From Emticicia sp. 21SJ11W-3 (GTDB lineage Bacteria > Bacteroidota > Bacteroidia > Cytophagales > Spirosomataceae), in the NCBI RefSeq assembly GCF_024138715.1, contig NZ_CP092074.1, positions 806,001 through 870,000 of the forward strand: DNA of 64,000 bases. The letters run 5' to 3'. Below the pieces are notes generated by a model. It had not been told where the DNA came from and did no database searches. It saw nothing but the letters and a program-made list of their open reading frames with translations. Numbering within the stretch: position 1 is the first letter of the stretch; every line of letters begins with the position of its first letter. The translations under genes were made by a program, and so were the position numbers. Below, piece after piece: positions 1 through 9,839 of this stretch.

Positions 1-168
1 TCCGTCTGCCAAGGTGGTATGCCCAATTTTTACGCCGGCCACATCTGTTATGGCATTGTTGATGCCGGGTTTCATAACCCCTGTTTTGATGCCCAGTTCT
101 CGAGGGCGTTTTTGTTGAGCTTCAACCGCTATGCTTAACAAAGGCAGAAAAAAGAGAAGTAGTTTCAT
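1..168 (-). CDS. P1 family (DmpA-like) peptidase, N-terminal fragment
   Basis: Only the first 56 codons lie in the window; the gene runs off the left edge. It starts at an ATG at 168 and begins with a short hydrophobic signal sequence (KLLLFFLPLLSIA) ending near AEAQ, so the product is probably exported. The segment that follows, RELGIKTGVMKPG then NAITDVAGVKIGHTTL, matches the start of the DmpA/P1 peptidase family (MEROPS S58, self-processing N-terminal nucleophile aminopeptidases; family knowledge). The catalytic serine lies outside the window. It is transcribed in the same direction as the next gene, 27 bases away, so the two could be cotranscribed. Confidence 0.75.
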   Translation of the reverse strand, partial: MKLLLFFLPLLSIAVEAQQKRPRELGIKTGVMKPGINNAITDVAGVKIGHTTLADG

Positions 169-194
169 ACATTTAATCTATTAATTGGAAAGGC

Positions 195-1505
195 CTAACG
201 GCCAAAAGTGTCTTCATAAATAACCTGGCCGTTGCCTCTTGAAAGTTTAACAGCATCTACAAGCCCTGCACCCTGAAACTGATACGTAAGGCCAATAATT
301 TTGCTACCTGCGCCTTTATGGGGGAAATCGAACGCCAGTTTATTGTCTACAAATATTTTTACATGGTTATTGACTGCCTCACACCGAACTGCTACAAAGT
401 GGTTGAAGTCAACCCCAAAACCTGATAAGTCGTTGGTTTTACCAGGTATTTCTTTGTCGATATAGAACAGGGTGTTTTCTGAAATACAACCTTTGGCCGA
501 CAGCCGGATGAGGATAGCCGAACCTTCGGTAAGCAGGCCTATTTCTGAATACTGGCAAACGGCTGCACCCTCTTTATAGGTGTTTTGTATGGTGGTTTCA
601 TAAATGAAACTATCAGTGCTGATGTCGCCGAAATCCTTCAGGTTCATGTATTGCACCGATGGCGCGGTGGGTTGCAGGTTGATATGCCGTGCCTCTATTT
701 TTTCAACTGTCAATCCCAGTTTTCCGTCTTGAATTGCCTCCTGCTGTTTGAAATATACCGGAACAGGCTCCTGGTTTATCAGCGGCAGCCAGCCGTTGGT
801 TTTTATAAAAAGCTGATGCTCTTTGATAACCTGATGGCCTACTACCAGCTTGGCCTGAAAAAAGCCCGGGTAATAATAGATAGAGGTATGCTGATGCTGA
901 TTGCGCGCAACACGGGTTCGTTTGGAGGAATCCCAGCTTTGTTGAATATACACCGAATCTTCAGGTGCTTTGGAGGCATCATAATCAAAAATAACTGAAT
1001 TAGGTACGCCCGATGCCACCACTTTTTTGCTGCTGAATTGGTAATCGGCAGGGTTCAGCTGCGCTGATGTGTTTACGTCTTTTTTTGCAAGCAACAACCA
1101 GCCTACAATGCCTGTTGCCAGTAAAATGGGCAGAATAAACGAGAAAAGATACGGGCGTTTGCGTACCTCGGGTTTGTTGGCAGGTATTTGAGCCGCTGTA
1201 ACGGCAGACGCCTGCTGTGGCATTTCGGCTGCCTGGTGCTGACGGAAATCCCGCCAGTTTTCAAAACCTGTGTACTGTGCCAGCGTGTTCAGGGTAGTGG
1301 CGGTAGGTGCAGACTCATACTTTACCTTGCCCCAGATGCGCTTCAACGTGGTGGGGCTGAGGGTTACAGAGGTAACATCAAATATCTGTTGTGATAACTC
1401 TTCAAAATCGCGGTTGCTCCATTGGGTGCTGTTTCCCCAGCCCAGTTTCTCTTCAATCAGGGTTTTGCATCGGGTTAGCAGTATGTCATCTGTATCGGTT
1501 TTCAA
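195..1505 (-). CDS. membrane-anchored protein with N-terminal putative DNA-binding domain and C-terminal lectin-like domain
   Basis: 436 residues. Residues 1-90 form a helical domain (LIEEKLGWGNSTQW, then SQQIFDVTSVTLSPTTLKRIWGK) of a type I associate with Bacteroidota helix-turn-helix-like regulators. One membrane helix lies near residues 120-140 (FILPILLATGIVGWLLLAKK). Residues 150-436 are beta-rich and end in a concanavalin/LamG-like segment (VKIFVDNKLAFDF, then EDTFGR). The predicted topology is a cytoplasmic putative DNA-binding head with a periplasmic sensor. The start is TTG at 1505: there is no in-frame ATG between the upstream stop and residue 90, and the N-terminal domain needs this start. 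Specific function is unknown; the sensor/regulator role is inference. Confidence 0.6.
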   Translation of the reverse strand: MKTDTDDILLTRCKTLIEEKLGWGNSTQWSNRDFEELSQQIFDVTSVTLSPTTLKRIWGKVKYESAPTATTLNTLAQYTGFENWRDFRQHQAAEMPQQASAVTAAQIPANKPEVRKRPYLFSFILPILLATGIVGWLLLAKKDVNTSAQLNPADYQFSSKKVVASGVPNSVIFDYDASKAPEDSVYIQQSWDSSKRTRVARNQHQHTSIYYYPGFFQAKLVVGHQVIKEHQLFIKTNGWLPLINQEPVPVYFKQQEAIQDGKLGLTVEKIEARHINLQPTAPSVQYMNLKDFGDISTDSFIYETTIQNTYKEGAAVCQYSEIGLLTEGSAILIRLSAKGCISENTLFYIDKEIPGKTNDLSGFGVDFNHFVAVRCEAVNNHVKIFVDNKLAFDFPHKGAGSKIIGLTYQFQGAGLVDAVKLSRGNGQVIYEDTFGR

Positions 1506-1645
1506 GCGTTTATGGGCTGTGGGGTGGTTTGAATAATCTTGAACAGACTTGAAAAGGCTATGAATAGAACCGTTGGCAGAGGCTTCATAAATTGTCAGGT
1601 CGATTCGGTGAATCAGTAATTAAATTCTAAAACACTAACAAAGCT

Positions 1646-2173
1646 ATGCAAAAGAACACAAAAACAGGGGTGCTGGCAGCAGTTTTTTTCGCCTTCTTAT
1701 TTCTTTCATTTGCTGCCTCTGCGCAGGACGACAAAGCCAAACGTCCGTCGCCGCCGGTTACGGCATCAGGCATTATCAATGGTAAAAGTGTAACTATTAA
1801 CTATGGCCAGCCCTCAGTAAAAGGCCGCGAGATTTGGGGTAACCTGGTGCCTTATGGTGAAGTATGGCGTGCAGGTGCCAATGAGGCCACAACCATTGCG
1901 TTTGCTAAAGATGTAACCATTGAGGGCAAGACGCTTCCGGCTGGCAAATATGGTTTCTTTACCATACCCGGTGCCAACGAATGGACCATCATATTTAATA
2001 AAGTGCCTAACCAATGGGGAGCCTTTAAGTATGATGCCGCACAGGATGCCCTGCGTGTAACCGTAAAGCCTAAGCAAGCAAAGGCATTCAGCGAAAAGCT
2101 GTGGTATGCAGTGAACAAGCACTCAGTAACCCTGGCATGGGCAAACACCGAGGTAGCATTTGGGGTGAAGTAG
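1646..2173 (+). CDS. DUF2911 domain-containing secreted protein
   Basis: 175 residues. A signal peptide (GVLAAVFFAFLFLSFAASA) with cleavage expected before QDDKAK is followed by a single DUF2911 domain filling the rest: RPSPPVTASG near the start, YGQPSVKGREIWG, VPYGEVWRAGANEATT and the LPAGKYGFFTIPG turn are the family hallmarks. The family is common in Bacteroidota and has no established biochemical role. The gene is monocistronic as far as the sequence shows: it diverges from the gene on its left, and downstream lies the long repeat array before the convergent mtgA. Confidence 0.85.
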   Translation: MQKNTKTGVLAAVFFAFLFLSFAASAQDDKAKRPSPPVTASGIINGKSVTINYGQPSVKGREIWGNLVPYGEVWRAGANEATTIAFAKDVTIEGKTLPAGKYGFFTIPGANEWTIIFNKVPNQWGAFKYDAAQDALRVTVKPKQAKAFSEKLWYAVNKHSVTLAWANTEVAFGVK

Positions 2174-2235
2174 GGTTGAGCCACTAAAGCGATCGAAACC
2201 AGTATTAGCCACCAGCGTAATTTACTTAGACCTGT

Positions 2236-2270
2236 ACTTTCCGCACTTTATGTACTAAAGTGCGGAAAGT
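2236..2270. repeat. hairpin in repeat block 1
   Basis: Bases 2236-2250 and 2256-2270 are perfectly complementary over 15 bases (core CCGCACTTTA / TAAAGTGCGG) around a five-base loop TGTAC. The next two pairs outward are a T-G wobble and a G-C pair. There is no T-run after it, so it does not look like a standard terminator. Confidence 0.85.
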
Positions 2271-2329
2271 GCGGATTCGCACACCTCGCACAAGAGTGCG
2301 AATAGTGCGAGTTAGTACGACCCTTATTT

Positions 2330-2650
2330 CTTCATCAAATAGATTGATATTTTTATAATTAATTGATAATCAATACATTAAATGTTATATTTATGATATT
2401 ATTGAAGATAGATTCTGTTTTGGAAGCCAATAACCGTACCAACCGCACACCTCGCACACCTCGCACAAGAGTACGAATAGTACGAGGCACTACATCATCA
2501 ATTAATATGGATGTTTATAATTAATTGATAATCAATATATTAATTAATTTATCTATAATATTATAGAAGATAGATTCTGTTTTGGAAGATGATAACCGTA
2601 CCAACCGTACTCTGGTACGGAAAGTACGGTTGGTACGGATTCGCACTAAT
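2330..2650. repeat. 162-base tandem duplication (spacer plus repeat block)
   Basis: Two successive modules share landmarks offset by exactly 162 bases: the palindrome ATTGATAATCAAT at 2362-2374 and 2524-2536, a 23-base identical stretch starting GAAGATAGATTC at 2404-2426 and 2566-2588, and the block start CGTACCAAC at 2435 and 2597. The 9-base units of the two blocks have diverged while the spacers have stayed similar. A third, degenerate spacer (2696-2842) keeps TTGATTATCAA (2758-2768) and a similar ending, ATTAACC. Confidence 0.8.
2596..2638. repeat. hairpin in repeat block 3
   Basis: CCGTACCAACCGTAC (2596-2610) pairs perfectly with 2624-2638 over 15 bases, leaving a 13-base loop. Here the cores are GTAC on both arms and the variable tetramers are CAAC/GTTG, in contrast to GCAC/GTGC and TTTC/GAAA in blocks 1 and 4, so both arms have changed together. 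A second small hairpin follows at 2657-2676 (AATCGCAC, loop CAGA, GTGCGATT). Confidence 0.85.
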
Positions 2651-2844
2651 CGCACCAATCGCACCAGAGTGCGATTCGTACGATTGGTACGATTATAATT
2701 TCTTAATTAGATAAATGAAATGAATTAAACTGAATTGGGTACTTTTTTTGTAACTATTTGATTATCAATAATTAATAATCAAAATAAATAATATAATTAT
2801 TAAAGATAAGAGTGAGTAGCCTTTGTTCAGAAAACCATTAACCA

Positions 2845-2890
2845 CACTTTCCGCACTTTCTGTACTCTGGTGCGGAAAGTGCGGAAAGTG
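2845..2890. repeat. hairpin in repeat block 4
   Basis: CACTTTCCGCACTTTC (2845-2860) pairs perfectly with 2875-2890 over 16 bases with a 14-base loop. The block then runs through further GTGCG-type units, six CGYAC-type units, and closes with a TCGCAC-AAGC-GTGCGA hairpin near 2959-2974. Confidence 0.85.
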
Positions 2891-3012
2891 CGATTAGTGC
2901 GATTAGTGCGGAATCGCACACCTCGTACACCTCGCACTATTCGCACACCTCGCACACCTCGCACAAGCGTGCGACTAGTGCGAGCTGCTTTGGCCGCTGA
3001 TGCTGACTTATA

Positions 3013-3792
3013 TCAAAACTGGCGTAGGTCTTTCAGATAAGATGGCCCACCCAAAGCCCGCATTTGCCGGGCAATTTGACTGGTTCGGCGAGCTACATAA
3101 GGCCCCGGATTCTGGATTGACCATTTCCTGGGGCTGGGCAATACGGCTGCTATCCGTGCGGCCTGTTCGCGGCTGATATTTTTGGCAGATTTATTAAAAT
3201 ACCGGTTAGAGGCCGCTTCAACGCCAAATGTCCTGTCGCCCATTTCTGCTACATTCAGATACACCTCCAGAATACGTTGTTTGCCCCAGATAAGCTCTAT
3301 CAGTACTGTAAAATATACCTCAATGGCTTTACGGATGTAGCTGCGGGTTTGCCATAGAAAAACGTTTTTGGCCACCTGTTGCGAAATCGTGCTGGCACCT
3401 CGTATCTTCCGGCCTTTCAGGTTACGGTTAAAGGCGGTTTTCATTGACCCGAAATCAAACCCGTAATGGTCAGGGAAAAGCTGGTCTTCGGCAGCCACCA
3501 CCGCTAAGGGCATTTCTTTTGATATTTTGTCATACGAAACCCACTGGTAATGTATCTCGCTGTCTTTTCCTTCGGCAATGGCTTCTATTTTTCTTGTCAG
3601 CATGGTAGCCGTAAAAGGCACAGGTACAAACTTGAAAAGCACTACGGCACTGATGCTTGAAACAAAGAAAAAGATAACAAACCTGACCAGCGTACGTTTC
3701 AGCCTTACCCATACGGAGGCGAGCCTGGGCCTGGCCGCAGCTTTTGATTTTTTAGGGGCCGGAGTTTTACTTCTGAATGTATTCTTAGCCAT
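3013..3792 (-). CDS. mtgA: monofunctional biosynthetic peptidoglycan transglycosylase
   Basis: 259 residues, GT51 family; polymerises lipid II into glycan strands at the outer face of the inner membrane. A basic N-terminus is followed by one membrane helix (about residues 34-56). The GT51 motifs are all present: AAEDQLFPDHYGFD with the catalytic glutamate, RGASTISQQVAKN, KRKAIEVYFT-type helix here RKAIEVYFTVLIEL, and GKQRILEVYLNVAEMG with the second glutamate region. There is no transpeptidase domain, and the length fits MtgA. It lies 63 bases downstream of the PhzF-like gene on the same strand, possibly cotranscribed. The 3' side is the repeat array. Confidence 0.93.
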   Translation of the reverse strand: MAKNTFRSKTPAPKKSKAAARPRLASVWVRLKRTLVRFVIFFFVSSISAVVLFKFVPVPFTATMLTRKIEAIAEGKDSEIHYQWVSYDKISKEMPLAVVAAEDQLFPDHYGFDFGSMKTAFNRNLKGRKIRGASTISQQVAKNVFLWQTRSYIRKAIEVYFTVLIELIWGKQRILEVYLNVAEMGDRTFGVEAASNRYFNKSAKNISREQAARIAAVLPSPRKWSIQNPGPYVARRTSQIARQMRALGGPSYLKDLRQF

Positions 3793-3855
3793 GTGTCAGG
3801 TTAAGTTTTGTAAGGGTATTGCACTTTTTTATGCAAAAATCGTAAAATTATGCGG

Positions 3856-4740
3856 TTACACAAACCATTTGCCCTGTGCAACCAGCTGCGCTTTGCCCCC
3901 TACCTGCAATTTATACTTTTCGTTGTCGGTTCGCTCGCCTTTAATACTGATTAACGACGGGCGGTTTATCTCGTACCCCTGTTCTACCAGTTTATGAATA
4001 ACAGGCAGCTCATGCTTAAGCAAATAGGCCAGCAGGCAACTATTGGCGCTGCCGGTGGCGGCATCTTCTACTATTTTCTGGTTTTCGAGGCAGAGCATCC
4101 GGGCATGCACATGATTTACCTCTGCGTGTGTTTCTGGCGAGAACACAAAGAAAGCAGTGGTAAGGCCATCGGCCGAATTACTTTTATGCAGCTGGTTGTC
4201 AATAAGCCATTGGGTAATGGCGGCGGCCTCTGGTTTTACCTGCTGCACGGCTTTCAGGGTTTTTAGCGGAACAATCAGATAAGGCAAACCGGTTGACACC
4301 AGCTGAACAGGCAGGGTATCGTCAACATCGGTGGGTTCAATGCCCAGCAGAGGCGGCAGGTCGGTGTAGAGGGTTTCACCAAAAACAGGGTTGTTCAATT
4401 CAAGCCAGAGTATTCCATCGGCTGGTTTTACAGGCACTTTACCTATTTTCAGGTTTAAGGTTATTTCAGACCCGGTATCGCCCATCAACACAAATGCCGT
4501 ACCCAGCGTAGGGTGGCCTGCAAAGGGTACTTCGTATTCGGGCGTAAAAATCCGAACGTTATAGCCACCGTCTGAGGGTTCATCAGAAAGAATAAAGGTG
4601 GTTTCCTGAAAATTGATTTCCCTGGCAATTTTCAGCATTTGCTCGTCTGTCAGTTCTCCGGCATTGCGGAATACAGCCAACTGATTACCCTGATATTTTT
4701 GCTCGGCAAAAACATCAACAATTGAAAAGTCTAGTTCCAT
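3856..4740 (-). CDS. PhzF family isomerase-like protein
   Basis: 294 residues, the usual length for the PhzF fold (two diaminopimelate-epimerase-like halves). Motifs: VDVFAEQKYQGNQLAVF at the start, INFQETTFIL carrying the conserved glutamate, FTPEYEVPFAGHPTLGTA in the first half, and VEDAATGSANSCL in the second half. Most members outside phenazine clusters have no known substrate, and no phenazine genes are near, so I assign only the family. Start ATG at 4740. The 300 bases upstream separate it from the divergent M61 peptidase gene. Confidence 0.88.
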   Translation of the reverse strand: MELDFSIVDVFAEQKYQGNQLAVFRNAGELTDEQMLKIAREINFQETTFILSDEPSDGGYNVRIFTPEYEVPFAGHPTLGTAFVLMGDTGSEITLNLKIGKVPVKPADGILWLELNNPVFGETLYTDLPPLLGIEPTDVDDTLPVQLVSTGLPYLIVPLKTLKAVQQVKPEAAAITQWLIDNQLHKSNSADGLTTAFFVFSPETHAEVNHVHARMLCLENQKIVEDAATGSANSCLLAYLLKHELPVIHKLVEQGYEINRPSLISIKGERTDNEKYKLQVGGKAQLVAQGKWFV

Positions 4741-5040
4741 CTTTTTCCAGTTTAAGATTTAGAATTGATACCCTTTCATGGCCCGGTATGGCAAATCCTG
4801 AAATCATGTTCCAACGTTTTGCTAAAAAACGAAATATCCCCCATAATGGGTGATGATGCACTCGTTTTTTTTTACTTATTTGCCGTGCATCATTGGTTTG
4901 CAGCACAGGTATGGTGTCTGACACCACGAGATACAGGTGGTAAATTGCTGTTCGGTATGTTTTTTGGTGTCATACGAATTAATAACTTTGTGCGTTTACA
5001 ATCCATCTGAGTTTATTAGACAAATTATAATCAATTATTT
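4741..5040. other. divergent intergenic region between PhzF-like gene and M61 peptidase gene
   Basis: No supported gene: a short minus-strand frame exists (to 4927) but overlaps the PhzF start and has no family features. The right end carries the promoter-like element for the M61 gene (4963-4990). I see no repeat or terminator in it. Confidence 0.5.
4963..4990 (+). promoter_or_regulatory. Bacteroidota-type promoter of the M61 peptidase gene
   Basis: TAACTTTG at 4983-4990 matches the Bacteroidota -7 consensus TAnnTTTG. TTTG at 4963-4966 may be the -33 element, though the 16-base gap is slightly short. The ATG is 50 bases downstream. Confidence 0.5.
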
Positions 5041-6921
5041 ATGAAAAGAATTGCATGTATGCTTCTGACAATGGCCGTTATGGCCGCCTGTACCAGAAGC
5101 GCCACGGTGAGCACCTCATCAACACAAAAAAATAACCTGTATCAGTTTTCGGTTGATTTAACCAAAGTGCAGAACGATAAACTGGAGGTTTCGCTGGTGG
5201 CACCTAAAATCAATGTCGACCAGATTACCTATTTTCTGCCTAAAATTGTGCCGGGTACTTATGCCAATTATGATTTTGGCCGTTATGTGTCTGGCTTTAA
5301 GGCTTATAATGCCAAGGGTGATACGCTGCCGGTTACTAAGGCAGATGTAAACAGCTGGACCATCAAAAATGCCAAAGACCTGCATAGAATCAGCTATAAA
5401 ATTGATGATACCTGGGATTCGCCCGAAATTAAAGGTGAAAAAATATTTGAGCCTGCCGGTAGCGATATTGATGCCAACAAAAAATTTGCCATTAATACTT
5501 TCTGCTTTTTTGGTTATTTTAATGGTTTAACAAAAGTGCCTTACCGGGTGTCATTCACCAAGCCTGATGGCTTTTATGGCGCTACTTCTATGAATTTTGT
5601 TTCAACCACAGCCAACCGTGATGTGTTTGAGGCCGATAACTACATGGATTTGTCTGATGCCCCGATACTGTACACCCGCCCGGACACCACCGTGCTGAAA
5701 GTAGGTGGTGCTGATATTCTGGTGTCGGTTTTTTCGCCCAATAAAAAAGCTAACTCAAAGGAAATTGCAGCCAATATCAACTCGTTGCTGAATGCCCAGA
5801 AAGATTACCTGGGTGGCAAATTGCCGATTCAGAAATATGCCTTCCTGATTGTGCTGTCAGATAACCCGAACCTGATGAGCTACGGTGCCTTAGAACACTC
5901 GTATTCGTCTTTCTATTATCTGCCCGAAGGTACTTCGAAGGAGCTTTCGCAGACAGTAAAAGACGTGGCTTCGCATGAGTTTTTTCATATCATTACGCCT
6001 TTGAGCATCCATTCAGAAGAAATCGGCGATTTTGATTTTAACCAGCCCAAGATGAGTAAACACCTTTGGATGTATGAAGGAGCTACCGAATATGCCGCCG
6101 GACACATGCAGATGAAGTATGGATTGATTGAAATGCCGCAGTATCTGGATATGCTGCAGGATAAAATCAATTTCATGAAGCGTGTGAACGACAAACTGCC
6201 GTTTACTGAAATGAGCAAGCAGGTGCTGGATAAATACAAAAACCAGTATCAGAACGTATATAATAAAGGCGCCTTGATTGCACTGTGTCTGGATATCAGA
6301 CTCCGTCAGTTATCAGACGGCAAGTATGGTACACAAAACCTGATGCGTGACCTGGCCAAAACCTACGGTAAAACCAAGTCGTTTAAAGATGATGAGTTGT
6401 TTGATAAAATAACGGCATTGACTTATCCTGAAATCCGCGAGTTTTTTACCAAATACGTTGAAGGCCCCGAGCCACTGCCATTGGTTGATGTTTTCAAGAG
6501 CGTAGGTATTGATTATTTGCCAGAGGCAACCGTGAAGAAAATCAGCCTTGGTGGCATTAACCTGGGCTATAGTGCGGCAACCAAGCGCATAAAAATAGCC
6601 AATGCCAGCAACATGAACGATTTTGGCAAGAAAATGGGGTATCAGCAGAATGATGAGATTATCTCGCTGAACGGCCAGCCATTTGAGTTAACCAAAGTGC
6701 AGCACCTGTTGGATGATTACAGCAACAACACCAAAGAAGGAGACCCGGTAGTGATGGAAGTAGCCCGTAAAAACAGCGAAGGTAAAGAAGAAATAGTGAA
6801 GCTGTCGGCACCGGCCATGCTGGTAGAGGTAGTAGAAAAGAATGTGTTGAAACCAGCCGACAACCCAACGCCTGCCCAGTTGAAGCTGAGAAAAGACTGG
6901 CTAAGCCCGGATAAAAACTGA
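5041..6921 (+). CDS. M61 family metallopeptidase with PDZ domain, lipoprotein
   Basis: 626 residues. The N-terminus has a lipobox (MAVMAAC), so the protein is probably a periplasmic or outer-membrane lipoprotein. Order: beta-rich N-terminal domain (about 30-230), catalytic domain with the zinc motif HEFFH at residues 312-316 and the downstream glutamate in YEGATEY (E346), then a C-terminal PDZ-like domain (about 500-590, GYQQNDEIISLNGQPF). This is the glycyl aminopeptidase (M61) layout; known members cleave N-terminal glycine or alanine. The gene stands alone, with its own promoter-like element and a hairpin downstream. Confidence 0.9.
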   Translation: MKRIACMLLTMAVMAACTRSATVSTSSTQKNNLYQFSVDLTKVQNDKLEVSLVAPKINVDQITYFLPKIVPGTYANYDFGRYVSGFKAYNAKGDTLPVTKADVNSWTIKNAKDLHRISYKIDDTWDSPEIKGEKIFEPAGSDIDANKKFAINTFCFFGYFNGLTKVPYRVSFTKPDGFYGATSMNFVSTTANRDVFEADNYMDLSDAPILYTRPDTTVLKVGGADILVSVFSPNKKANSKEIAANINSLLNAQKDYLGGKLPIQKYAFLIVLSDNPNLMSYGALEHSYSSFYYLPEGTSKELSQTVKDVASHEFFHIITPLSIHSEEIGDFDFNQPKMSKHLWMYEGATEYAAGHMQMKYGLIEMPQYLDMLQDKINFMKRVNDKLPFTEMSKQVLDKYKNQYQNVYNKGALIALCLDIRLRQLSDGKYGTQNLMRDLAKTYGKTKSFKDDELFDKITALTYPEIREFFTKYVEGPEPLPLVDVFKSVGIDYLPEATVKKISLGGINLGYSAATKRIKIANASNMNDFGKKMGYQQNDEIISLNGQPFELTKVQHLLDDYSNNTKEGDPVVMEVARKNSEGKEEIVKLSAPAMLVEVVEKNVLKPADNPTPAQLKLRKDWLSPDKN

Positions 6922-6956
6922 TTTTACCGCTTGAACATTCAGCTTGAAAAAAAAAG

Positions 6957-6991
6957 AAGCGCGGCCTTTGTAAACTAACAGGGCCGCGCTT
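6957..6991. terminator. bidirectional hairpin between M61 gene and hisC
   Basis: AAGCGCGGCC (6957-6966) pairs with GGCCGCGCTT (6982-6991), loop 15 bases. It lies between two convergent stops. The A-run on its left gives a U-tract for the minus-strand transcript of hisC. Confidence 0.75.
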
Positions 6992-7005
6992 GCTGTTTAT
7001 AATTT

Positions 7006-8052
7006 TCAGTAGGCTTTCAGGGCTTCTACCAAAGCGGCGTTCTCGGCATCGGTGCCTATCGATATACGGATACAACCTTCGCAAAGCTGTACATTAGAGC
7101 GGTCGCGGGTGATAATCTTCCGGTCAATCAGGTATCTGAAAACCGCTTTGGCATCTGCAAACTTAACCAGCAACTGGTTGGAGTCTGAAGGGTAAATGTG
7201 TTTTACAATTGCCAGCGTGCCCAGCATATCTGCCAGTGTCTGGCGTGCTTTCAGGATATCCTGTACGTAAGCGTTCTTTTTATCTTCGTTGTTCAGGGCA
7301 TCCAGTATCAGCAATTGCGTTACGGCATTGAGGTTATACGGATACTTGATTTTGTTCAGAATCTTAATCAGGTCTTCTGATGCAAAGGCCATCCCGAAGC
7401 GTAAGGCGGCCAATCCCCATGCTTTAGAGAATGTCTGCAATACTACCAGGTTCGGGTAGCTGTCTAACAATTTCGTGAAAGAATCAGCCTCTGCAAAATC
7501 AATATAAGCTTCATCCACTATTACCAGCCCGGTTGTAAATTTTTCAAGAATCTCCAAAACTGCCTCTCTGCTCACCAGATTCCCCGATGGGTTATTAGGC
7601 GAGCAAATCCATATCAGTTTGATATGGGGTGTAACCGCCGCCAGTACGGCTTCGGTATTTATCTCGAAGTCTGTGGTTAATGGCACCTGTATTACCGGGG
7701 TATTCTGTACATCGGCACATACCTTATACATACCGTAGGTTGGGGGCATTATCAGAATATTATCTTCCTTTGGCTCGCAGGTAGCACGAATCAGCAAATC
7801 AATGGCTTCGTCAGAGCCGTTGCCCAGAAAAATCTGCCCCGGTCGCACGCCTTTAATTACAGCCAGCTTGTCTTTTATGTCTGTCTGGTGAGGGTCCGGG
7901 TAGCGGTTATAATTTCCGTCTATTACCGAGCCGAAAGGGTTTTCGTTGGCATCAAGAAAGATACCTTCTTTGCCGGTGTATTCATCACGAGCCGACGAAT
8001 AGGGGGCAAGTGTAAGAATATGCTGGCGTATTATATTGTTCAGAGAAAACAT
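7006..8052 (-). CDS. hisC: histidinol-phosphate aminotransferase
   Basis: 348 residues; PLP-dependent fold-type I aminotransferase converting imidazole acetol phosphate to histidinol phosphate in histidine synthesis. Seen: IFLDANENPFG at the start, LGNGSDEAIDLL, SPNNPSGN, VDEAYIDFA and the PLP lysine in QTFSKAWGLA, then RFGMAF. The C-terminus has the substrate-phosphate arginine region RISIG. No other his gene is in the window. It follows the SDR gene by 44 bases on the same strand and may be cotranscribed with it. Confidence 0.92.
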   Translation of the reverse strand: MFSLNNIIRQHILTLAPYSSARDEYTGKEGIFLDANENPFGSVIDGNYNRYPDPHQTDIKDKLAVIKGVRPGQIFLGNGSDEAIDLLIRATCEPKEDNILIMPPTYGMYKVCADVQNTPVIQVPLTTDFEINTEAVLAAVTPHIKLIWICSPNNPSGNLVSREAVLEILEKFTTGLVIVDEAYIDFAEADSFTKLLDSYPNLVVLQTFSKAWGLAALRFGMAFASEDLIKILNKIKYPYNLNAVTQLLILDALNNEDKKNAYVQDILKARQTLADMLGTLAIVKHIYPSDSNQLLVKFADAKAVFRYLIDRKIITRDRSNVQLCEGCIRISIGTDAENAALVEALKAY

Positions 8053-8096
8053 AAGGGCGTATCTGATTTATTTTTAATGGTGGTTGGTTGTACTAA

Positions 8097-8864
8097 TTAT
8101 TTGGGAGCCATTCTGATGGCGCCATCCAGGCGAATCACTTCTCCGTTCAGCATGGTGTTTTCTACAATATGCTGGGCAAGCTGCGCGTATTCATCCGGCT
8201 GGCCCAAACGAGACGGGAACGGAACCTGCTGGCCTAATGAAAGCTGCGCTTCTTCGGGCAATGAGGCCATCAGCGGGGTTTTAAAAATACCCGGGGCAAT
8301 GGTCATTACCCTGATACCGTTTCTGGATAAGTCTCGGGCAATGGGTAAGGTCATAGACACGATGCCACCCTTTGAGGCCGCATAGGCTGCCTGCCCGATT
8401 TGCCCGTCATAAGCAGCTACCGAAGCCGTATTAATAATTACACCTCGTTCGCCTCCGTCATTGGCTTCATTTTGGGTCATTTCAAAAGCAGCCAGACGTA
8501 TCATATTGAATGAACCTATCAGATTAATATTGATGATTTTCTGGAAATGCGCCAGCGAATGAGGCCCTTCTTTACCAACTGTGCGTGCAGGCGGAGCAAT
8601 ACCCGCGCAATTTACCAGAATATGGATGGCTTTGAAACGGGCTATGGCCTGGGCCATCACTTTTTGTGCATCTTTCTCTGACGAAACATCACATTTTACA
8701 AACTTTGCCTTGCGGCCCAGGTCGGCTGCCAGCGCTTTGCCTTTCTCTTCGTTCAGGTCTGCTATTACGGCATTAGCGCCTGCTTTTACGAACCGCCTGA
8801 CAACGGCTTCGCCTAAACCCGATGCTCCGCCGGTTACTATGGCTGTGAGTCCTTTTAGCTGCAT
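8097..8864 (-). CDS. SDR family dehydrogenase, HSD10-like 3-hydroxyacyl-CoA dehydrogenase
   Basis: 255 residues, classical short-chain dehydrogenase. NAD-binding [10 protein letters not shown] near residue 11, DL at the end of beta-2 (favouring NAD), NCAGIAP, the catalytic serine in [14 protein letters not shown] and YAASKGG with catalytic tyrosine and lysine. The segments [22 protein letters not shown] and [15 protein letters not shown] resemble the type II 3-hydroxyacyl-CoA dehydrogenase (HSD17B10) branch, suggesting a fatty-acid or branched amino-acid oxidation step. Substrate is inferred from sequence likeness only. It heads a possible two-gene unit with hisC. Confidence 0.82.
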
Positions 8865-8942
8865 AAATTGATAAAAAAGAAAAATTATTATGGATACCTC
8901 TACCGGTGTCGCTAAATTGCCACAAAATTTGAAAAGAATCTT

Positions 8943-9839
8943 ATGTTATCCAAAGAAAATATTGCCGAATACTTCAGAACCCTGCAAGACCAGATATGTA
9001 CTGCCATAGAAAATACCGATGGCAAAGGCAGATTTCATGAAGACCAATGGCAACACCACAGTGGCGGCGGCGGGCGCACAAGGGTAATAACCGACGGCCA
9101 TATCATTGCCAAAGGGGGGGTGAACTTCTCGGCCGTATCCGGTGAAGTATCTGATGCACTACAGAAGCAATTGAAGTTATCGGAGAAGTCAGACTATTTT
9201 GCCACAGGGGTATCAATAGTGCAGCATCCGGTTAGCCCTATGGTGCCTATTATACACATGAACGTGCGGTATTTTGAACTGGGCAACGGTACGTGCTGGT
9301 TTGGTGGTGGTATTGACCTGACACCCCATTATGTGGTTGAGGATGATGCACGTTGGTTTCATGCCCAAATGAAAGCCGCCTGCGATAAACATGACCCGGC
9401 GTATTACCCAAAGTATAAAGAATGGGCAGATAACTACTTTTATTTGCCTCACAGAAACGAAACCCGCGGTGTAGGTGGGATATTCTTTGACTACCTGAAG
9501 CCAGCCGATGAACCTGCCAAAGCAGATTTGTTTGCCTTTGTGCAGTCGGTAGGCGAGAGCTTTGCACCTGTTTATACGCACCTGATGGCAAAAAACCATC
9601 TGCTGCCGTATGGCGAACGTGAAACCAACTGGCAGATGCTACGCCGGGGGCGATATGTTGAGTTTAATCTGGTTTGGGACAGAGGTACGAAATTCGGGCT
9701 GGAAACCAACGGACGTACGGAGTCTATCTTAATGAGCCTTCCGCCTGTAGCTAATTGGGTGTATGATTACCAGCCTGAGCCGGGTAGCGCAGAAGCGCAA
9801 ACGCTTGGCCTGCTAAAGAAAGACATTAATTGGGTGTAA
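8943..9839 (+). CDS. hemF: oxygen-dependent coproporphyrinogen III oxidase
   Basis: 298 residues. Catalyses oxidative decarboxylation of coproporphyrinogen III to protoporphyrinogen IX in haem synthesis, in the cytoplasm. Family signatures seen: [53 protein letters not shown] and [31 protein letters not shown], and ESILMSLPP near the C-terminus. Length is normal. Its presence implies aerobic or microaerobic growth. It is divergent from the SDR gene (78 bases) and followed by a hairpin before the CLC gene. hemL is also in the window but unlinked. Confidence 0.96.

Follow-up and report, generated by a model that had tools for sequence, protein, structure and literature searches.

A phased nine-base repeat array in Emticicia sp. 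21SJ11W-3 as a probable orphan iteron cluster of a helicase-primase module

The window analysed in this study, 64,000 nucleotides of the Emticicia sp. 21SJ11W-3 genome (NZ_CP092074.1, positions 806,001 to 870,000), contains an array of phased nine-base units between two host genes. Judged from sequence comparison, this array is probably, though by no means certainly, an orphan iteron cluster that is likely bound by the HTH of the strain's own helicase, and arrays of this kind are probably the origins of integrated elements. The evidence lies in the regularity of the array, in a second array beside a helicase gene and a primase-like gene in the same genome, and in an association between the repeated core and the helicase HTH across related loci.

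The array in the window and its surroundings

Forty exact CGYAC or GTRCG cores were found in positions 2200-3000 (50 per kb, versus 1.6 per kb in the remaining window), a count that includes 2677 as an overlapping reading of 2678. Four further units are degenerate and in phase (TGTAC at 2233, 2251 and 2861; CACAC at 2843), and the estimate of about 42 units made in the sequence-only reading agrees with this tally. Phased short direct repeats are one feature of iteron origins, and 31 of the 39 successive spacings were 9. Two spacings of 18 each span one degenerate unit, those of 8 and 1 both come from the overlapping reading 2677/2678, the single spacing of 10 (2305 to 2315) marks a shifted unit, and the remaining three are block gaps. 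The earlier observation of a nine-base phase with one unit displaced by one base was borne out, the displaced unit being that at 2315. TRF detected period 9 in five stretches of the array. The pair GTRCGN4GTRCG occurred 24 times in the window, always within 2260-2982, against 0.16 expected (0 of 100 shuffles), which rules out a chance origin of the array.

The cores are arranged in four blocks separated by three spacers of 81-82% AT, compared with 57.6% for the whole window. Block A (2233..2322) consists of two palindromes with 8 exact cores in the order LRRLLRRR, in a single phase except for the last unit, which is shifted by one base. It is followed by spacer 1 (2326..2432, 81% AT) and by block B (2433..2490), one palindrome of 6 cores (LLLLRR) in one phase. 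Spacer 2 (2489..2592, 82% AT) is a direct repeat of spacer 1; the repeated stretch is 100 bases long, reaches from each spacer into the block behind it (B and C, respectively) and is 87% identical between the two copies. Block C (2593..2695) has two palindromes (LLRRR and LLLRRR) with 11 cores plus the overlapping reading, which is its only core out of phase. Spacer 3 (2694..2838, 81% AT) repeats a segment of spacers 1 and 2 in inverted orientation over 21-24 bases, and block D (2840..2986) comprises two palindromes with 14 cores in one phase throughout, LRRRRRLLLLLLRR. Single nine-base units are not palindromes themselves; the oppositely oriented units form seven palindromes with 1+2, 2+3, 4+2, 2+3, 3+3, 1+5 and 6+2 exact cores, only one of which has the 3+3 layout. 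The former description of palindromic units is therefore loose.

As had been stated, the array lies between convergent genes, namely a DUF2911 gene on its left, outside the array (1646..2173, plus strand), and a transglycosylase gene (PF00912; 3013..3792, minus strand) on its right. The transglycosylase is regarded as a host gene because relatives at least 68% identical were present in all 11 Emticicia genomes searched. The neighbours to 8 kb encode DUF2911, transglycosylase, PhzF-like, M61 peptidase and aminotransferase proteins and one protein without a Pfam family, with no integrase, excisionase or mobilization gene among them. No helicase or primase gene was found in positions 1-9000 of the window, and no remnants of either were seen at the array. 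An adjacent initiator gene, a further feature of iteron origins, is thus lacking here; it is present at the second array of this genome and at 48 of 64 helicase loci, although those loci had been selected by helicase. DUF2911 lay 3' of the transglycosylase in none of the ten other Emticicia genomes (1.5-kb flanks), and weak DUF2911 matches were located 5' of it in four (L134-L136, L139). Since the DUF2911-transglycosylase pairing is absent from these 1.5-kb flanks, they do not decide between insertion and loss of the array.

All 17 matches of the three-unit pattern in the 5.18-Mb genome fall at one of two places, the window array or 1,675,874-1,676,121. The search for many intergenic copies that had been proposed thus yielded one other locus only, and two loci for this pattern in 5.18 Mb rule out a REP/BIME element or another genome-wide repeat. 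The second array sits between an AAA_25 (RecA-fold) helicase gene, whose 371-aa product has a C terminus resembling HTH families, and a primase-like gene, whose product contains Zn_ribbon_16 and DUF6371 domains. This cassette is flanked by valyl-tRNA synthetase and MoxR/Mg-chelatase-like ATPase genes, and DUF2807 and Ldh_2 proteins are encoded nearby. The window array and the helicase-locus array match at the level of DNA units, and they are alike in core type and in AT-rich partition, with 82% AT between the two palindromes of the second array.

Helicase, primase and the proposed code of the core

Genes for DUF6371 were present in 70 of 222 genomes of the family. Pooled 6-mer repeats from the 350 bases preceding 43 DUF6371 genes (40 chosen among the best matches, plus 3 loci examined before) were most frequent at lag 9 (112); the counts at lags 7, 8, 10 and 18 were 35, 61, 9 and 53, respectively. 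Many of these loci contain a palindromic array with a core of its own, and several do not. Scanning named genomes with the helicase profile gave 262 loci, the best 80 of which, mostly Bacteroidota by title with a few other labels (Azovibrio, Geobacteraceae, Bacillota bins), were combined with 8 earlier ones; removal of three duplicates and one locus without a stop left 84 of these 88, and dereplication at 90% identity or above left 64. In 48 of the 64, a lag-9 array was found in the interval between 40 bp ahead of the helicase stop and 300 bp past it, and 46 of these 48 arrays scored higher than every one of 100 first-order resamplings. Lag 9 was the best in the same 48 loci, lags 7, 8 and 11 were each the best in one, and 13 loci had none. 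Both Tn4555-type loci, with repeats spaced 8-10, are among the 16 loci that missed the lag-9 score; arrays were seen by eye in some of the misses (L087, L126, L128 and L232) and not in others. The nine-base phase, which had been supposed to be preserved, is kept in related arrays across many genera, and the design is not confined to one site and recurs with other cores as well. The tetramer, formerly described as free, is nearly so, with the core-adjacent position also biased in related arrays. A family-wide scan for the pattern itself matched 23 of 222 genomes, outside Emticicia mostly with isolated matches; its reversed control also matched in many genomes, and by eye several matches were coding or single.

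Three classes of C-terminal HTH were distinguished by patterns that were defined after viewing the data, and the classes were checked by a Mantel test and by a second set of loci. With the class A HTH (SE[GS]xVR[KR]), the best repeated 5-mer was CGTAC, CGCAC or the shifted reading TACGA in 18 of 18 loci; class B (MKVxR-like) was accompanied by a GTAAC/TGTAA core in 12 of 12, and class C (S[LV]GAVNKY-like) by a GTTCA/GAACA core in 14 of 14. The three classes thus corresponded to three cores in 44 of 44 loci, and the remaining four loci have other HTHs and other cores. The 3+3 layout was the commonest among the class A-C loci (27 of 44), and the innermost cores were 3-5 bases apart in 39 of the 44. 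In the label-free Mantel test on all 48 loci, the similarity of the repeated 5-mer was compared with the identity of the HTH and of the helicase body, giving r=0.657 for the HTH and 0.094 for the body. The partial correlation of core with HTH given body was 0.654 (0 of 2000 permutations as high), and that of core with body given HTH was -0.042 (1671 of 2000 permutations). The core follows the HTH and not the helicase body.

The second set consisted of 14 viral-contig loci. Nine fell into classes A-C, and the predicted core was found in nine of nine, including the poorly phased L303; two of the nine (L296 and L297) are 99% identical to a first-set helicase, the other seven at 60-85%. The five unclassed loci comprise two HQxAKR HTHs with GTAAC, one FNSFKV HTH with a GTAAC/GTTAC-type core and two loci with GTCCC; L290, read in a wrong or short frame, was not counted. 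The helicase of L295 is 84% identical to that of class-B L156 (GTAAC) and the helicase of L299 is 85% identical to that of class-B-type L168 (GTAAC), yet both carry a class-C HTH and GTTCA arrays, so that natural exchanges of the HTH are visible. The helicase of the strain studied here belongs to class A (SESGVRR), which predicts a CGYAC core. Among the 11 Emticicia genomes, the array pattern was found in this genome and in that of E. agri, the same two that have a class-A helicase, and Emticicia sp. BO119 has a class-B helicase with a GTAAC array. E. agri possesses two helicase-array-DUF6371 cassettes. A third array, next to a DDE transposase fragment, lies 0.6 kb short of a contig end, and the 6.9 kb examined there contained neither a helicase gene nor a DUF6371 gene.

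Structure models were taken from the E. agri proteins, the helicase being 72% identical to that of the strain. The C-terminal part of the helicase model (mean pLDDT 85.5) is a confident three-helix domain at residues 327-372, and the core of the model aligned with KaiC (Z 20.6), T7 gp4 (20.3), RSF1010 RepA (19.2) and DnaB (19.2), all of which form hexameric rings. The DUF6371 model (92.7) matched T7 primase (E 1.7e-5) and DnaG, with modest TM-scores of 0.3-0.5. On the strength of these models, the module looks like a T7-gp4-like helicase and primase split into two proteins, in which the helicase bears a predicted DNA-reading tail and commonly has six matching sites beside it. When the PDB was searched by sequence, the helicase profile gave one marginal match (8vd6, E 8.4e-5), in which no individual stretch passed by itself, and the primase profile gave none; PADLOC had no match for either protein.

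The tetramers between the cores were examined in opposite arms of related arrays. Their complementarity was 1.79 of 4, compared with 1.93 after permutation (73 pairs), and 955 of 1000 within-class permutations were at least as high as the observed value. Pairing did not exceed chance. The palindromes thus stem from sites that face one another, not from selection for a hairpin, and the units resemble sites at which a protein would bind double-stranded DNA. A hairpin as the main constraint is unsupported by this permutation, although some window palindromes, such as 2596-2638, are perfect hairpins. Among the roles proposed in the sequence-only reading, a protein-binding array is favoured by the evidence, and the 73 pairs speak against RNA structure as the main constraint.

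The origin reading and its alternatives

The computations establish the array with its period and genomic context, the 3+3 layout, the association of core and HTH, the lack of pairing between spacers and the predicted folds of a close relative; from these we infer binding, ring stoichiometry, origin function and activity of the orphan as follows. Each iteron (CGYAC plus four bases) is likely a double-stranded site for the C-terminal HTH of the strain's helicase, a putative ring-type RecA-fold enzyme encoded at 1.675 Mb beside the gene for the DnaG/T7-like primase. Six sites in the 3+3 layout directly 3' of the helicase gene, the commonest form in the integrated elements of many Bacteroidota, would seat the HTHs of one ring or of two half-rings. 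The array would be the replication origin of the excised element, on which the helicase may load and at which the neighbouring primase would start synthesis. The window copy is most likely a duplicated or left-over origin module, which would still be bindable in trans. A wider version, which we put forward tentatively and with more doubt than belief, would make such arrays mobile-element origins throughout the phylum, with each helicase ring reading its own six-site 9-bp array through an exchangeable HTH code and the orphans serving as extra loading sites (ectopic origins or decoys).

The origin reading is supported by two small circular plasmid-database records, of 10.1 and 11.6 kb, that carry the helicase and DUF6371. 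The smaller one (10,057 bp) shows the gene order of Tn4555. Of its 9 annotated proteins 7 were scanned, and no replication gene other than the helicase and DUF6371 was recognised; one of the 7 had no family, and the mob protein gave only a weak match. The small circular plasmid records L126 (CP103138) and L127 (CP103131) contain integrase or excisionase genes, hinting that these circles are excised Tn4555-like elements and that the circle is maintained. A weak point of the origin reading concerns unwinding. An AT-rich gap (81-82%) separates the blocks at both sites of the strain, and the corresponding AT content in E. agri was 75% in L049 and 68% in L048, versus locus means of 62% and 60%. In most elements the array is compact, with a gap of mostly about 50-120 bp; compact arrays have no such AT-rich gap beside them and leave little room for an AT-rich unwinding region.

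The HTH-core association would suit a repressor equally well. In that case the helicase HTH on the array would control the downstream primase gene, and the orphan would be a stray operator or decoy. The array is directly upstream of the primase start in most loci in which a primase was found. The sites, however, lie 3' of the helicase's own gene, hence classical autoregulation does not apply; six phased sites matched to a ring-type helicase would be unusual for an operator, and the window array is placed where two host genes converge with their 3' ends. An operator is on this evidence unlikely.

Orphan arrays in other genomes bear on the question of whether the window copy could be a self-spreading repeat. 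An order-wide scan matched 17 of 390 genomes, whereas its reversed control matched about fifty, mostly in family f12, and 1 of 23 genomes of another genus of the order, g67; given these control matches, only palindromic clusters were followed up. A helicase was found within 1.5 kb in 1 of the 28 loci fetched; some of these loci (L233, L239, L244-L247) contain so few cores that they are probably chance matches. In g67, about one to four helicase-less arrays per genome were seen with up to one mismatch allowed. The exact three-unit match was present in 10 of 23 g67 genomes (that in G450 probably by chance) and the helicase in 7, and four genomes (G438, G466, G492 and G529) have arrays and no helicase match, which indicates that arrays can occur without the helicase. 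Several orphan CGTAC arrays of g67 (L275-L282, also L234-L243) have common flanks on opposite sides, one CAGCAAAAAGAAAAA-like and one TTCGAGGAT-GAAATTCGAAA-like, as if they were part of a larger repeat. When 198 genomes from the whole phylum were scanned for three class-C units, 9 places in 6 genomes matched, with 0 control matches; at these nine loci a primase gene lay beside the half-array in two (L315 and L316) and a helicase match in none. In two genomes of family f35, G576 (L311, L315) and G711 (L312, L316, L317), three-unit GTTCAC half-arrays in inverted orientation were observed on the same contig at a distance of about 1.7 kb. Orphans are thus recurrent, whether as a by-product or as an accessory of the helicase-array system.

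A passenger or MITE-like repeat that spreads by itself, with binding irrelevant to the orphan, would explain the common flanks and the copy number of the g67 orphans, and the direct repetition of window spacers 1 and 2 would fit it as well. The strain's own genome, however, holds a single orphan locus, and the orphan core type matches the array of the resident helicase. No convincing target-site duplications or terminal repeats were found in the window flanks by eye or in two cassettes by repeat search. With two mismatches allowed, the counts in six g67 genomes did not exceed those of the reversed control, which leaves a large dispersed family in that genus unsupported. We therefore regard this explanation as distinctly unlikely.

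Assembly of helicase and primase on the array for excision or transfer of the element, which would make the array a recombination site, is suggested by the integrase and excisionase genes of several elements. It is nevertheless improbable, with the array internal to the element and away from its ends and with the cassettes of this genome and of E. agri keeping the array in the absence of a recognised adjacent integrase. A structured RNA or a transcription terminator serving the two convergent genes is highly improbable. The position between convergent genes would suit it, and each block folds better than its mononucleotide-shuffled counterpart on one strand or both (for block C, -63.5 versus -25.3 on the minus strand). 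Against it, the opposed tetramers of related arrays pair no better than permuted ones, the core tracks the HTH of a protein, and the 20 Rfam 15 matches listed at E up to 5, mostly to microRNA models, were all below gathering scores with no family near its own, which agrees with the sequence-only reading.

Relation to known systems and further observations

The origin reading places the arrays among iteron-type systems of known kinds. The SaPI rep-ori has an initiator-helicase with a C-terminal origin-binding part and short iterons around AT-rich DNA, and initiator and origin co-vary. The likeness to the present arrays lies in the C-terminal origin-binding helicase, the short iterons and the co-variation with the origin; the SaPI helicase is of a different class, whereas here a RecA-fold T7/RepA-like helicase is combined with a 9-bp phase and commonly six sites. 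The IncQ plasmid RSF1010, with its RepA/RepC/RepB' set, is similar in having a RecA-fold hexameric helicase, a dedicated primase and an iteron origin. In RSF1010, RepC and not the helicase binds the iterons, whereas the HTH is fused to the helicase here. REP/BIME and CRISPR arrays are likewise palindromic or phased intergenic repeats; the window array differs from them in its 9-bp unit, its two genome loci, its link to a helicase family and the absence of a CRISPR-like long repeat.

A likeness in gene content was found with the Tn4555-type mobilizable transposons of Bacteroides. Tn4555 contains a DUF6371 gene as listed in PMC13183296, and the gene order of the 10.1-kb record fits that listing. 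Helicases of this type (GKSTVNR) are associated with DUF6371 and have a 3+3 GTCCC/GGGAC array inside the 3' end of the reading frame, and in other KST-type loci (L217, L228) GTCCC repeats lie just downstream. They differ from the arrays described above in the spacing of 8-10, the HTH class and the core. The cassette of the strain, for its part, departs from the Tn4555 type in that no integrase, excisionase or mob gene was recognised beside it. A precedent for a rep gene with a downstream iteron origin in a mobilizable island is SGI1, an integrative mobilizable element of Salmonella (PMC7433901); SGI1 differs in its RepA_C-domain initiator and its control by a helper plasmid, and it is likened here by origin type. 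Among titles and abstracts of the open literature on Tn4555/NBU1, iterons of integrative elements, RSF1010-like helicases and SaPI origins, none described such arrays; an earlier description elsewhere in the literature may nevertheless exist. A specialist would be surprised by the 9-bp 3+3 design, the helicase-fused HTH and the legible, exchangeable code, the rest being of a known iteron-type kind. In a 2017 review, the part on how excised mobilizable elements are maintained is headed 'An Unexplored World', and their replication is described as never studied (PMC5704250); for SGI1, replication was demonstrated later (PMC7433901). What the present analysis offers for elements of the Bacteroidota, relatives of Tn4555 included, is a concrete proposal of origin, initiator and specificity code. 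If the proposal is true, about ten residues would suffice to read the specificity and compatibility of an origin, and a seemingly meaningless intergenic repeat would become a testable landing site for a helicase.

Several variants of the module were observed in passing. Helicase-array-primase cassettes of about 2.5 kb lie between host genes with no adjacent integrase in L046 (3746-6472, between valyl-tRNA synthetase and MoxR-like genes) and L087 (2717-5164, between TMEM260-like and dnaJ genes), as if the module moved or persisted alone. In these two Emticicia cassettes a different, TCCCGTAGGGACGGTATATT-like repeat occurs between or after the arrays (L046, 5173-5481; L087, about 3970-4090), and eight core variants of it were absent from the window. 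DUF6371 genes with no adjoining AAA_25 helicase were seen in L090, L097, L100, L105, L112 and L118; short palindromes are common upstream of them, with a shared CCTATATAGG-like centre. Two cores occur in one element in L168, where a GTAAC array follows the helicase (downstream of 4972) and a second array, of CGTAC type, is located where the primase reading frame begins. Expanded arrays were found downstream of the helicase in L196 (13 units) and L221 (8-10 units), which suggests that units are gained by slippage or unequal exchange.
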